From: Aneurinibacillus terranovensis DSM 18919 | GTDB lineage: Bacteria; Bacillota; Bacilli; Aneurinibacillales; Aneurinibacillaceae | Reading direction: 5' to 3' | NCBI RefSeq assembly: GCF_000430625.1 | Contig: NZ_AUMJ01000015.1 | Coordinates: 1-64,000 of the forward strand | DNA: 64,000 bases | In this document: positions 13,355 through 45,747 of the stretch, piece by piece | How the letters are laid out: each line of letters starts with the position of its first letter | How positions within the stretch are numbered: position 1 is the first letter of the stretch | Notes under the pieces: model-generated | What the model saw: only the letters and a program-made list of their open reading frames with translations | What the model was told of the DNA's origin: nothing | The model's database searches: none | Made by a program: the position numbers and the translations under genes

Positions 13355-14389
13355 ATGATGAAAAATCGCGGGAGTAATGTCGTTTTGCTCCCGACTGTTG
13401 TCGACTTTTACCTGGAGCAAGCGTTTGTGGCCAGAGAAGAAAAACGGTTTGATGAAGCGATAGCCTGGTTGTCCAATATTCTCCAGTTCGAACCTGAACA
13501 TCCCGTCGCACTTTTTGACATGGCTTTGACGCGGTATGAATCCGATTGCTATGAAGAAGCAAGGGATGTGGCGATGAAGATGTGGGAAGAGGAGATTGGG
13601 GATCGTTCTTCGGTGCTTCGCTTGTACTTATCCTGTTTAATACGGCTCGAAGATTTTGACGGCATTAGCCGGCTTTTAAACGAAGCCCAAAATCATGACG
13701 GCATAATCGTGACCGAGGATTTGCTGGAAATTAAAGCCGCTTGTGATTTGCTTCGTCAATCCGAAGAGGACCACGATGCCAATCTTTCAAGAGATACTGT
13801 AATCCAGCGCATAGCGGATAATCCGGACTACCCGTCGGAACTCTATGAAAAACTGGACGGTGGCACCTTTGAAGAGCAGCTTCGTTCCATCGAACAATTG
13901 AAATACATACACACGCCGGAAACCGTTTCTGTTTTAAAAGAATATTTACTTCTTGTCTACCCGGACCCAATTCTTAAAACATTTGCCGTGCGGGCACTGA
14001 AAGAGATGGGTGAGGGTGGCCGTGTTTTTATACATAAGTATAATCAGTTGTTTGAGGCAAACATAGAAGATGTTCCCCTGCATGACCAGGAAATTCCGGA
14101 TGAGGAACGGCGGGTGATGGAAATTATCGGGCGCGTCGTGGACAATGGCGATGTTTCCTTTCTCCCCTTTGCCCTTCAGCTCTGGATGGAATATCTGTTT
14201 GCGATTTTTCCGCTTCATCCCGCCGTTCGCAATACGGCATCGTGGGCGGCGGCCCTGCACTACGCAACAGCCCGGCTCCTTCATATGGACCTGACGCAGA
14301 AGCGGGTAGCGGCCCTCTACCAGGTCCCTCTTTCAAGCGTCAGCCGTAATTACCGCAGCCTCAACCAAGTGCTGGAGATTGATTCGTAA
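13355..14389 (+). CDS. TPR-type protein (YsoA-like)
   Basis: A 344-residue soluble protein. Residues about 15-100 form tetratricopeptide-like helices (AREEKRFDEAIAWLSNIL, PEHPVALFDMALTRYES), the middle has HEAT-like helices (VSVLKEYLLLVYPDP), and a C-terminal domain follows. It lies directly ahead of tig, where B. subtilis has the TPR protein YsoA, so orthology is likely but not proven. Function is unknown; TPR folds usually bind other proteins. Confidence 0.75.
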   Translation: MMKNRGSNVVLLPTVVDFYLEQAFVAREEKRFDEAIAWLSNILQFEPEHPVALFDMALTRYESDCYEEARDVAMKMWEEEIGDRSSVLRLYLSCLIRLEDFDGISRLLNEAQNHDGIIVTEDLLEIKAACDLLRQSEEDHDANLSRDTVIQRIADNPDYPSELYEKLDGGTFEEQLRSIEQLKYIHTPETVSVLKEYLLLVYPDPILKTFAVRALKEMGEGGRVFIHKYNQLFEANIEDVPLHDQEIPDEERRVMEIIGRVVDNGDVSFLPFALQLWMEYLFAIFPLHPAVRNTASWAAALHYATARLLHMDLTQKRVAALYQVPLSSVSRNYRSLNQVLEIDS

Positions 14390-14427
14390 CCTTTTCTTAC
14401 AGGGGGAATTTTCATTTTTTTGGTGAG

Positions 14428-14455
14428 TTGAAATGGAGTTTGGTTATGATATAAT
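14428..14455 (+). promoter_or_regulatory. sigma-A promoter of tig
   Basis: TTGAAA (14428-14433), a 16-base spacer and perfect TATAAT (14450-14455). It lies some 250 bases before tig, so the transcript would carry a long leader made of repeat family 1 and an IS605-like tail. Confidence 0.7.
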
Positions 14456-14475
14456 ATAATGGCTATAGCTATAAA

Positions 14476-14690
14476 GGTACTTTCGGCAGCCCCGTGCTGA
14501 ATAAGGGCAACTAAGGCTATGACCGGCGCCTGCGGCTTTGCGCTAGCCAAGTTTTCTTTATATAAAGCTACAAGTTTTACATAAGCGATCACTTGTACCG
14601 TCGGATGAACGGGAAATTAAGCCTGTGGAGAAAGTAGGCGTACGAAATCAACGAAGCAGGAAATCCATCCTCAGGGTCGTTAAATTTTTA
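14476..14690 (+). mobile_element. relic resembling the omega-RNA/3' end of an IS200/IS605 tnpB element
   Basis: The stretch begins with a GGCAGCCCCGTGCTG motif (14484 on), passes through the 57-bp repeat core (14507-14563), and ends with sequence containing GTACCGTCGGATGAACGGG and AACGAAGCAGGAAATCCATC. From memory, this order matches the 3' part of IS605-family tnpB genes, where the guide (omega) RNA scaffold is encoded. A translated frame reads SDEREIKPVEKVGVRNQRS, like a TnpB tail. No tnpB or tnpA gene is present here. The assignment rests on recall, not on a search. It lies inside the tig leader, downstream of its promoter. Confidence 0.5.
14507..14563 (+). repeat. dispersed repeat family 1, copy 1
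   Basis: This 57-base core aligns without gaps to 43244-43300 (52 of 57 identical by hand count) and to 24266-24322. An internal hairpin pairs GGCTA with TAGCC and GCGC with GCGC around the CTGCGGC loop. Confidence 0.85.
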
Positions 14691-14707
14691 GGAGGGGAAA
14701 GCATAAA

Positions 14708-15991
14708 ATGAAAGCTACTTGGGAAAAGTTAGAAAATAATCAGGGTGTTCTTACCGTTGAGGTGGAAGAAACCCAGGTGAATGAAGCGATTGACCGAGCA
14801 TTCACCAAAGTTGTAAAGAAAGTAAATATTCCGGGATTCCGCAAAGGAAAGGTGCCCCGTAAGATTTTTGAAGCACGCTTTGGCATTGAGTCTCTTTACC
14901 AGGATGCGCTTGATATCCTTCTTCCGAAAGCTTACTCTGAGGCTGTTGAAGAAACGGGCATTGACCCGGTTGACCGTCCGGAAGTAGATGTAGAAACGAT
15001 GGAAAAAGGACAACCTCTTGTATTTAAAGCTACGGTAACCGTTAAGCCTGAAGTAAAGCTCGGTGATTACAAAGGATTAACCGTTGAGCCGAAAGATTTT
15101 GCCGTAACCGACGAATCTGTTGAGCAAGAATTAAAAACGATGCAGGAACGCAATGCTGAGCTTGTTGTAGTAGAAGATGGCGCCATTGAGAAAGGCGACT
15201 ACGCGATCATTGACTTTGATGGCTACGTGGATAATGAACCTTTTGAAGGCGGACAAGCGGACAACTATCAATTAGAAATCGGTTCCGGTACATTTATTCC
15301 CGGATTTGAAGACCAGCTCGTCGGCCTTAAGAAGGGCGATGAAAAAGATGTCGAAGTCACGTTCCCGGAGGAGTACCACGCAGCGGAGCTCGCTGGCAAA
15401 CCTGCTGTATTTAAGGTAAAAGTCAACGAAATTAAACGTAAAAACCTGCCGGAGCTGGATGATGAATTCGCTAAAGATGTGAGTGAATTTGATACGCTTG
15501 ATGAATTGAAAGCCGACATTAAGAATAAGCTGGAAGAGAAAGCGGTTATCGATGCCGATAACTATAAAAAAGAAGCGCTGATTGAGCAGGTAGCTGCCAA
15601 TGCAACTATTGACATTCCGGAAGTTATGATTGAACATGAAGTTAACCATATGGTTGATGATTTTGCCCAGCGCCTGCAGTATCAAGGCATGAATCTTGAC
15701 CTGTATTATCAATTTACCGGATTGGATGAAGAGAAGCTTCGTGAGCAGTTCCATGCCGACGCTGAAAAACGCGTTCGCACAACACTGACACTTGAAGCGG
15801 TTGGCAAGGATGCAAATATCGAAGTAACGGATGAAGACGTTAATGAAGAGTTAAATAAACTTGCCGAACAATACAATCGTCCGGTAGACGAACTTCGCCG
15901 CATATTTGAGACACAGGGTAATCTGGAAAGCTTGGAAAATGACATTCGTATTCGCAAAACGATTGACCTGCTTGTTGAAAGCAGCAAATAG
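14708..15991 (+). CDS. tig: trigger factor, ribosome-bound chaperone
   Basis: Trigger factor meets nascent chains at the ribosome exit and has peptidyl-prolyl isomerase activity. The 427-residue protein has an N-terminal ribosome-binding domain (1-145) with [17 protein letters not shown] near residue 43, an FKBP-type isomerase domain (about 160-245; [19 protein letters not shown]), and a helical C-terminal chaperone domain. Length is as usual. ATG 14708 follows AGGAGGGG. The long leader holds repeat family 1. It heads the tig-clpP-clpX block. Confidence 0.97.
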
Positions 15992-24228: not shown

Positions 24229-24322
24229 GCGTGCAGGAAAGTGTAACTTTCTTACACGCATACGTGTAACTAAAGCTAACGCCTACGCCTTTTGCTTGGC
24301 GCTAATCAAATTGTCTTTACAC
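24229..24322 (+). repeat. dispersed repeat family 1, copy 3, with upstream hairpin
   Basis: A 13-base imperfect inverted repeat (GCGTGCAGGAAAG / CTTTCTTACACGC, loop TGTAA) is followed six bases later by the 57-base core at 24266-24322. The core matches copy 2 at 41 of 57 positions. The hairpin plus core layout matches that at 43209-43300. Confidence 0.7.
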
Positions 24323-24500: not shown

Positions 24501-26123
24501 ATGAATCGCATGCTTCAAAGCCGGAGTGCGAGAACAGGACTTGCTAAAGTCCAGCGAACAGCAAAAAGAATAGAACCGCTTCTAAGAGAAATGGAATCCA
24601 TCGATTCATGCAGAGAGCAGATAAGGGCGATCCTGGATGAGGATCTTGCGAACGACGAATATTTCGTACTCGTTGACAGGAACGGACACGGTCTTGTTCA
24701 TACGAATCGGCTTCGTGAAGGAAATATTTTTGACGATGAAGTAGGTAGAAAGTCGGCGAATACGGATCAACCTCTGCTGCAAGTGTATCCGCGCAATACG
24801 GGTGAATTGTTAATCGACGCATCCTGTCCGGTTTTAAAATACGCAAATGGTAAGCGCTTTAATTTGCGGATGGGACGCATTATGCACCGCCCGTTTTTGA
24901 CTCCGGCGATTTATGGATTGGGGACTGTTCCAACGCTGGCAACCGCCTTTACATTTATCGCGATGGGCGACATGAAGGAATCTATGCTATTTGCCTCCAT
25001 TATCTCACTTGTTGTAGGAATCAGCGGATCTTTTATTTTGTATAACCAGATCGCAAGCCGTTTACGTGATTGGTACAAGGTAACCCGAAGTATTTCAGCG
25101 GGAGACCTGCGTGTCACAACGCGAAGCCATGGGCGGAATCAATTTACCCAGATGGGGTATGAGTTAAATAAAGTTATTATTGGAACGAGGAACATTGTAC
25201 AGGAATTGGCTGTCTCCGCTGAGGTGACAAAAGATATAAGTGAAGCCCAGGCGGGAGAAGCGGCACAGATCGTTCGGACTTTCGAAGAAATGTCGGAAAT
25301 GATGAACACGTTTCGCACAGGGACGGAATCCCAGCTCGCTTCCTTAGAAGAAGCGCACGCGATGACAGAGCAAATGATGACCGAAGTACATAAGATGACC
25401 GATAATATAAGTCAGGCTCTGTCTTTATCAAACAGTGCTTTTGAGAGCGCCAACATAGGAACTGCAGCTATAGGCGATTCAGAATTTCATATGAAAAACA
25501 TTGAATCTCTCGTAACGGAAGCGGTTCAGAGAATTTCGGCCGTATCGCATTTTACAAATGAAATGATGCAGAAAATTTCCATGATTACGGGGATTGCGCG
25601 GCAAACGAATATGCTTGCGCTGAATGCTTCCATTGAAGCCGCGCGTGCCGGAGAACACGGACGCGGATTCGCAATTGTAGCGGGTCAGGTACGCAATCTG
25701 TCCGAAAGCACGTCACAGTTTGCAGACGATATTTTGATGACGCTGGAAAAAACGCGGGAGGAAGCAACGGAAGCCGTACAAAAAGCGGAAGAAAGTGTAA
25801 GGGCGATTACAAAAGGAATGGAAGTCGTGAAAGTAGCGGGAGAATCGATCCGTACGATGCATGAAGTAGTTGAAAAAACGAAAGATCAAGTATCGGAAAA
25901 TGTAACGTTCTCAAGCCGCATCATGGAGAATGGAGCGGAGATGGAACATATTATTGGAAGTCTGACCGCCATTGTGGAGGAATTTACCGAGTCAATGGCC
26001 AAGGGGGCAGCCTCTATGGAACAGCAGGTAGGTGGAGTTCAGGATCTTGCCCGGGCAGCCGAAAAATTATCTGAGCAATCACAAATTCTTCATACAGTTG
26101 TTAAAAGATTTACAATAAGTTAA
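24501..26123 (+). CDS. methyl-accepting chemotaxis protein with sensor ahead of its membrane hairpin
   Basis: A 540-residue chemoreceptor-like protein. ATG 24501 follows AGGGGGAA. Residues 1-130 form a soluble region with a sensor-like stretch ([17 protein letters not shown]). Two membrane segments follow close together, about 132-152 and 158-178, then a HAMP-like stretch and a long methylation/signalling coiled coil. The signalling tip has the conserved [20 protein letters not shown] and [15 protein letters not shown]. No membrane segment precedes the sensor, so the sensor is probably cytoplasmic. It lies 52 bases upstream of ppx, suggesting a possible shared transcript. The ligand is unknown. 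Confidence 0.88.
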
Positions 26124-43208: not shown

Positions 43209-43300
43209 AGATAAGAAAGAATAACTTTCTTATCTATATAAGTGCAACTAAGGCCATCACCGACACCTGCGGCTTGGCGCTAGCCAAGTTTTCTTTATAT
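43209..43300 (+). repeat. dispersed repeat family 1, copy 2, with perfect hairpin
   Basis: An 11-bp perfect inverted repeat (AGATAAGAAAG / CTTTCTTATCT, loop AATAA) lies eight bases before the 57-base core (43244-43300), which matches copy 1 at 52 of 57 positions. The hairpin-then-core layout recurs at 24229-24322. Confidence 0.8.
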
Positions 43301-45479: not shown

Positions 45480-45747
45480 GAATTGAAATTGATAGCTGAT
45501 CAGCGCTGATGAGGAAGAGTACATCAGGATGCCATACCAGAGAGCGGACCATTGGTGGAAGGCCGCATGGATGTACTGATGGAAGGTAGCCTTTGAGCTG
45601 TTTGCCTGAAAAACGTAGGGCAGACCGGAATTTCTCCGTTATGAAATGAGTGAACTTGCTTTCCTTTATTTCAAGCAGGTTAACAAAGGTGGTACCGCGA
45701 AATCAACTTCTTTCGTCCTTTGAGGGACGGGAGGAGTTTTTTTTCTT
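45480..45747 (+). promoter_or_regulatory. T-box leader of valS
   Basis: The leader senses uncharged tRNA-Val. The T-box core AAAGGTGGTACCGCG lies at 45685-45699, where the UGG/ACC antiterminator pairing forms. Stem I contains an AGAGAG motif near 45539. The probable specifier codon is GTA (Val) at 45586-45588 in GGAAGGTAGCC. The terminator is a CGTCC/GGACG-based hairpin with a run of T's ending near 45745. Charged tRNA gives termination; uncharged tRNA-Val gives read-through into valS. Confidence 0.92.

Follow-up and report, generated by a model that had tools for sequence, protein, structure and literature searches.

An omega-RNA-like sequence without tnpB in the leader of the trigger factor gene of Aneurinibacillus terranovensis

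Introduction

Does the leader of tig, the trigger factor gene of Aneurinibacillus terranovensis DSM 18919, contain the guide-RNA scaffold of a lost transposon, and if so, is the scaffold debris, a guide for a protein encoded elsewhere, or a working part of the leader? The question was raised by an earlier note on the window (the whole stretch of 64,000 nucleotides analysed here, positions 1 to 64,000 of contig NZ_AUMJ01000015.1), in which 215 bases downstream of the tig promoter were likened to the omega-RNA encoded at the 3' end of IS200/IS605 tnpB elements. In the ISDra2 omega-RNA, the loop of stem 1 forms a pseudoknot with the final bases of the scaffold, and a stem 2 is present as well (PMC10097598).

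Results

Layout of the tig leader

The genome containing the window comprises 4.25 Mb in 98 contigs, and the trigger factor of the window shares 82% identity with the Aneurinibacillus aneurinilyticus protein. The family sample consists of 11 genomes, with G001 as the sole other member of the genus. The tig promoter, placed upstream of the stretch by the earlier note, agrees with the consensus at 11 of 12 positions and is kept in all the genomes of the family (11/11). The distance between its -10 element and the ATG is 252 bases in the window and 281 in G001. The leader and the gene are arranged as follows.

14428-14455, + strand: tig promoter TTGAAA-N16-TATAAT with an extended -10 (TG)
~14497-14562, + strand: dispersed hairpin repeat, one copy, with its core at 14501-14561
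14563-14594, + strand: linker
14595-14662, + strand: omega-RNA-like scaffold core, the conserved leader part
14663-14677, + strand: apparently decayed right-end hairpin (stem 4 position)
14678-14683, + strand: transposon-derived 3' end CGTTAA
14684-14701, + strand: host sequence where the guide of an omega-RNA would sit; the ancestral leader of the relatives resumes here
14690-14697, + strand: tig ribosome-binding site AGGAGGGG, within the guide position
14708-15991, + strand: tig (trigger factor; domains Trigger_N, FKBP_C, Trigger_C)

Between the promoter and tig neither a tnpB nor a tnpB fragment was found, in agreement with the earlier note, nor a tnpA or tnpB flanked by left and right ends; the right-end core alone is left. 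The linker aligns weakly and, compared with G001, is not conserved above chance; it is perhaps a remnant of the tnpB stop-codon region, its origin being uncertain. No terminator was found in a scan of 14300-14800, so that attenuation at the repeat hairpin gains no support from the scan.

The comparison with HEARO and other Rfam models, suggested as a check, gave no match in the tig leader at the gathering level over the window. Elsewhere in the window a T-box leader (RF00230) was matched at 45497-45723 with 136.6 bits. HEARO/RAGATH-18 RNAs are likewise structured and transposon-associated, and in PMC11061315 the RAGATH-18-derived RNAs are described as co-occurring with upstream IS607 TnpBs, but the tig-leader segment matches no Rfam family, even at E <= 10 over 14300-14800.

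Homology to the right ends of tnpB elements

In a blastn search, 14595-14667 matches the sequence just 3' of a decayed tnpB in another genome (G036), and a protein search led to G026, where an intact tnpB from this subfamily is followed, immediately past its stop codon, by that same right end. A covariance model (R1) was built solely from these two right ends, both from other families, and the tig-leader sequence itself was left out. The model matches the leader (14595-14707) with 41.9 bits, the E-value being 8e-8 for the sequences first searched and 3.1e-6 for the whole 4.25-Mb genome; 14595-14683 alone scores 40.6 bits. The tig leader of G001 scores 36.5 bits, a match that was unlisted in the genome-wide R1 scan and surfaced only on direct search of the locus. 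Across the 399 genomes of the class, R1 matches at E <= 0.001 are confined to 7. The matched span is the non-coding right end immediately past the TnpB stop codon, and over this one span the scaffold of the window aligns with right ends from an intact TnpB (L184) and from decayed TnpBs. Only about 90 bases (14595-14683) of the proposed 215-base stretch are omega-RNA-like, and its 5' part belongs to the dispersed repeat.

The refuting outcome named in the earlier note, the lack of any matching IS605-family right end or of a related tnpB in the genus, did not arise, as relics were found within the family. A second right-end relic of the same genome lies on contig 14 (15896-15988; L262 1501-1593) and scores 48 bits. 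G008, from the same family, has two R1 relics, one of which has a decayed tnpB 3' end upstream (98 bits). These relics indicate that the TnpB subfamily once lived in this family. The search of 14570-14707 against the TnpB loci of the own genome (blastn) returned nothing meaningful, which places the source element outside the resident TnpB families. Taken together with the R1 match, the alignments make it, in our view, almost certain that 14595-14683 descends from a TnpB right end.

Several further matches were recorded. The contig 14 relic lies where the reading frame of an ABC-transporter ATPase ends. A tnpB-less element in G015 (L269, ~1380-1680) apparently combines a right-end-like sequence with the left-end-like CTTGGCCGTCAGGATGAAT, as found 5' of the G026 tnpB. 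The R1 match at 25512-25604 of the window (13.5 bits, E 0.35) was taken as chance.

Architecture of the scaffold

The conserved part and the 3' end of the segment accommodate the following helices.

14598-14612, + strand: stem 1, CCGT (14598-14601) paired with ACGG (14609-14612), loop 14602-14608
14604-14607, + strand: 5' arm of the pseudoknot, GATG, in the stem-1 loop, paired with CGTT (14678-14681) in the 3' end
14622-14626, + strand: 5' arm of stem 2, CCTGT
14656-14660, + strand: 3' arm of stem 2, GCAGG, paired with 14622-14626

Across eight related sequences, the pseudoknot is paired in 100% of the alignment cells (4/4 pairs in 8/8 sequences), stem 2 in 100%, and stem 1 in 90%, compared with 35-45% in a control in which the partners were slid by 1-3 columns; as the sequences had been aligned by fitting to the model, the counts are biased towards the structure. 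The pseudoknot arms are GATG/CGTT in the window and GACG/CGTC in G001 and the TnpB loci, and the 3' end accordingly reads CGTCAA in G001 and the TnpB right ends. Relative to the TnpB loci both arms of the window pseudoknot have changed, and the pairing survives through two G-U pairs. In stem 1, a compensatory C-G to G-C exchange is common to the tig leaders of the window and G001 and is absent in TnpB right ends. At the position of the right-end hairpin only a short alternative hairpin could form, with no conservation relative to G001. By sequence comparison, then, the three helices that define the omega-RNA core (stem 1, the pseudoknot between loop and 3' end, and stem 2) are present in the tig leader.

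Could the leader be an unrelated structured RNA that resembles an omega-RNA by chance? Its thermodynamic folding would allow this, as neither the scaffold segment nor the whole leader folds more strongly than shuffled sequences (z ~ +0.8, in a folding model that does not include pseudoknots). A chance resemblance is nonetheless hardly credible, given an E-value of 3e-6 from a model built without the tig leader, the coincidence of the matched span with the non-coding right end past the TnpB stop, and the agreement of three helices including the pseudoknot.

In respect to the ISDra2-type omega-RNA of IS200/IS605 elements, the likeness thus extends to stem 1, the pseudoknot, stem 2, and the host sequence directly 3' (PMC10097598, PMC8612924). 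The tig leader differs in that tnpB is missing, the right-end hairpin appears decayed, the scaffold lies in the 5' UTR of a host gene, and the guide position is taken by the ribosome-binding site.

Dispersed repeat in the 5' part of the leader

The segment at ~14497-14562 is unrelated to the omega-RNA, and the leader is composite. In the own genome blastn gave 40 further matches to the repeat, with up to 93% identity; copies within the window also lie at about 24229-24320 and 43211-43300. The repeat is also abundant in other genomes of Bacilli, e.g. G001, G002, G004, and G022. The consensus consists of two hairpins: a variable palindrome (GCGTATAAGAAAG...CTTTCTTATACGC), followed by ATAAGTGCAACTAAGG, the second hairpin, and CAAGTTTTCTTTA. 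The copy in the tig leader retains the second hairpin, and this conserved element probably contributed to the longer order of motifs perceived in the earlier note. By description, not by sequence, this high-copy hairpin repeat is of a kind similar to the bcr1-like and REP-like short palindromic repeats of Bacilli. Loci of Y1 transposases or TnpBs were considered as its source and rejected, as no copy was found beside such loci. The alignment of the copy with the G001 tig leader does not exceed the shuffle level, which makes a later insertion of the repeat probable.

T-rich runs precede many copies of the repeat. A second repeat, AAAGTATATGTTGCTTTACAGTGTTAAAGCAACATATACTTTCC and then a common stretch around GGTCACCTGAGAAAAACTCGCGGGAGTGTGC, occurs 3' of several copies (L053, L054, L064, L067, L073).

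Empty sites and conservation among relatives

In the nine family genomes outside the genus the -10 element and the ATG of tig are separated by 87-101 bases, and the scaffold is absent. Around the ribosome-binding site, these nine relatives also have the sequence found past the right end in the window, and the terminus, CGTTAA in the window and CGTCAA in G001, runs straight into this ancestral host sequence. No scaffold was detected by R1 in the tig regions of 80 further Bacilli. The empty sites, together with the independent model and the pseudoknot and stem architecture, support the central proposal of the earlier note, namely that the transcribed tig leader contains an omega-RNA-like sequence with no tnpB.

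The G001 leader holds the scaffold at the same place, with 52 of 64 aligned bases identical over 14595-14662 (81%). In tig itself, third codon positions of the two species are 51% identical and fourfold-degenerate sites 42%, i.e. near saturation. The alignment scores against G001, compared with those of shuffled sequences, are 71 vs 22.7 for the promoter, 67 vs 20.7 +/- 3.5 for the scaffold, and 44 vs 16.0 for the ribosome-binding region; the scores of the linker, the right-end hairpin, and the copy of the repeat stay within the shuffled controls. The simplest history compatible with these alignments would be that one insertion, immediately 5' of the ribosome-binding site, took place in an ancestor common to both species. 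Two independent insertions at one site are a conceivable alternative, given that the scaffold of the window is 78% identical to G036 vs 81% to G001, but the shared compensatory exchange in stem 1, missing in TnpB right ends, speaks against them.

The earlier note had offered neutral debris as one reading, in which a functionless transposon right end lies in the tig leader by chance. Decay is indeed seen in the other relics of this right end, both in the own genome and in G008, and the tig leader itself seems to have lost its right-end hairpin to decay. Even so, debris is an unlikely account of a scaffold that is 81% identical next to fourfold-degenerate sites at 42%, that keeps its base pairs and its pseudoknot, and that is adjoined by leader parts at the shuffle level. 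Such an identity at saturated neutral divergence points to a retained function at the RNA level. The contig 14 relic shows the opposite decay, with the right-end hairpin kept and the scaffold stems lost; the reversed pattern of the tig leader fits a constraint on the RNA core and not on transposition. With only two genomes as the basis in the case of tig, we consider it likely that the scaffold is under selection.

Related leaders of an oxidoreductase gene

R1 also matches the leaders of one oxidoreductase gene in another family of Bacilli (f30), with 43.3 bits in G293, 35.6 bits in G355, and 25.9 bits in G185; the match in G094 is weak (15.0 bits), and G194 has a diverged look-alike of the scaffold in the corresponding leader. 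No such leader scaffold was seen in the remaining five f30 genomes.

f30 tnpB-less oxidoreductase leaders, several genera: L268, L270, L272, L273, L275, L279

The gene encodes a subunit of a 2-oxoacid ferredoxin oxidoreductase with POR/POR_N domains. Its scaffold is preceded by a promoter-like sequence and followed by the ribosome-binding site, with no tnpB seen adjoining; the pseudoknot is kept, and the bases past CGTC vary between species. These alignments are consistent with either independent capture or common ancient debris.

Partner proteins and the guide position

The own genome carries TnpB and TnpB-like genes, two of them intact, with TnpBs on contigs 39 and 50, and G001 has TnpBs as well. 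Neither genome yielded a cognate TnpB: over most of the G026 protein, identity did not exceed ~43%, and the best full-length match was 43%. Where right ends of the own TnpBs are known, their sequences differ from the scaffold. The intact TnpBs of the own genome have no close relative in G001. When up to 2 mismatches over 18 bases are allowed, the guide-length sequence 14684-14701 occurs in the genome at its own site only.

These results bear on the proposal that processing of the leader yields an omega-RNA which serves, in trans, a TnpB or a nuclease-dead protein of the TldR type whose gene lies elsewhere. The proposal has in its favour that the conserved part is the scaffold core including the pseudoknot between stem 1 and the 3' end described for ISDra2 (PMC10097598), and that a locus with a frameshifted tldR has been suggested still to supply guide RNAs in trans (PMC13418256). 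With no cognate TnpB and no second guide match, and with the guide position being the ribosome-binding region of tig itself, such a role is quite improbable. TldR guide RNAs resemble the tig scaffold as TnpB-type guide RNAs kept outside a mobile element; TldR systems, however, encode a protein and a guide that matches a target gene, and neither was found for the tig leader.

Alternatively, resident proteins of the TnpB family could attach to the scaffold of the tig mRNA and thereby cover or cleave the ribosome-binding site, a repression of tig in cis that depends on TnpB. The position of that site, exactly at 14684-14701, would suit this arrangement, and TnpB is reported in PMC10278001 to process its own mRNA to omega-RNA. 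The missing cognate protein and the differing right ends of the own TnpBs argue against such repression, and in the oxidoreductase leaders the ribosome-binding site lies tens of bases further off; we regard this explanation as very improbable.

Discussion

Among the three readings of the earlier note, a leader with a structural role fits the observations best. The explanation towards which we lean, by a modest degree, is that an omega-RNA core was captured in front of tig and retained there as a structured part of the 5' UTR with a role in cis. An IS200/IS605-type tnpB element would have inserted just 5' of the tig ribosome-binding site in the common ancestor with G001. Loss or decay would then have affected tnpB as well as the left end and the hairpin at the right end. 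The remainder, 14595-14683, would be the core of the scaffold, comprising stem 1, stem 2, and the pseudoknot with the 3' end; the tig promoter would drive its transcription within the 5' UTR, and selection would maintain it. The product would be a stably folded, pseudoknotted leader beside the ribosome-binding site, which may influence the stability of the tig mRNA (e.g. by resisting 5'-3' decay by RNase J1) or its translation. As a model, this structural action in cis is plausible, with chances that we judge to be about even.

In an open-access literature search no description of tnpB-less omega-RNA leaders was encountered, which is not proof of their absence. To our knowledge, the known domestications of TnpB keep the protein together with its guide RNA; in the case of tig, a housekeeping gene, what has apparently persisted in the leader, in cis, is the guide-RNA scaffold alone. 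Tentatively, and with somewhat less confidence than for tig alone, we propose that omega-RNA scaffolds may have been captured repeatedly as conserved, nuclease-free 5'-UTR elements of housekeeping genes, in front of tig and of the f30 oxidoreductase gene, where the mRNA would be controlled either by the pseudoknotted fold or by a protein, of the host or of the TnpB family, that binds it. If this is true, TnpB transposons would supply host genes with ready-made, pseudoknotted 5' UTRs.
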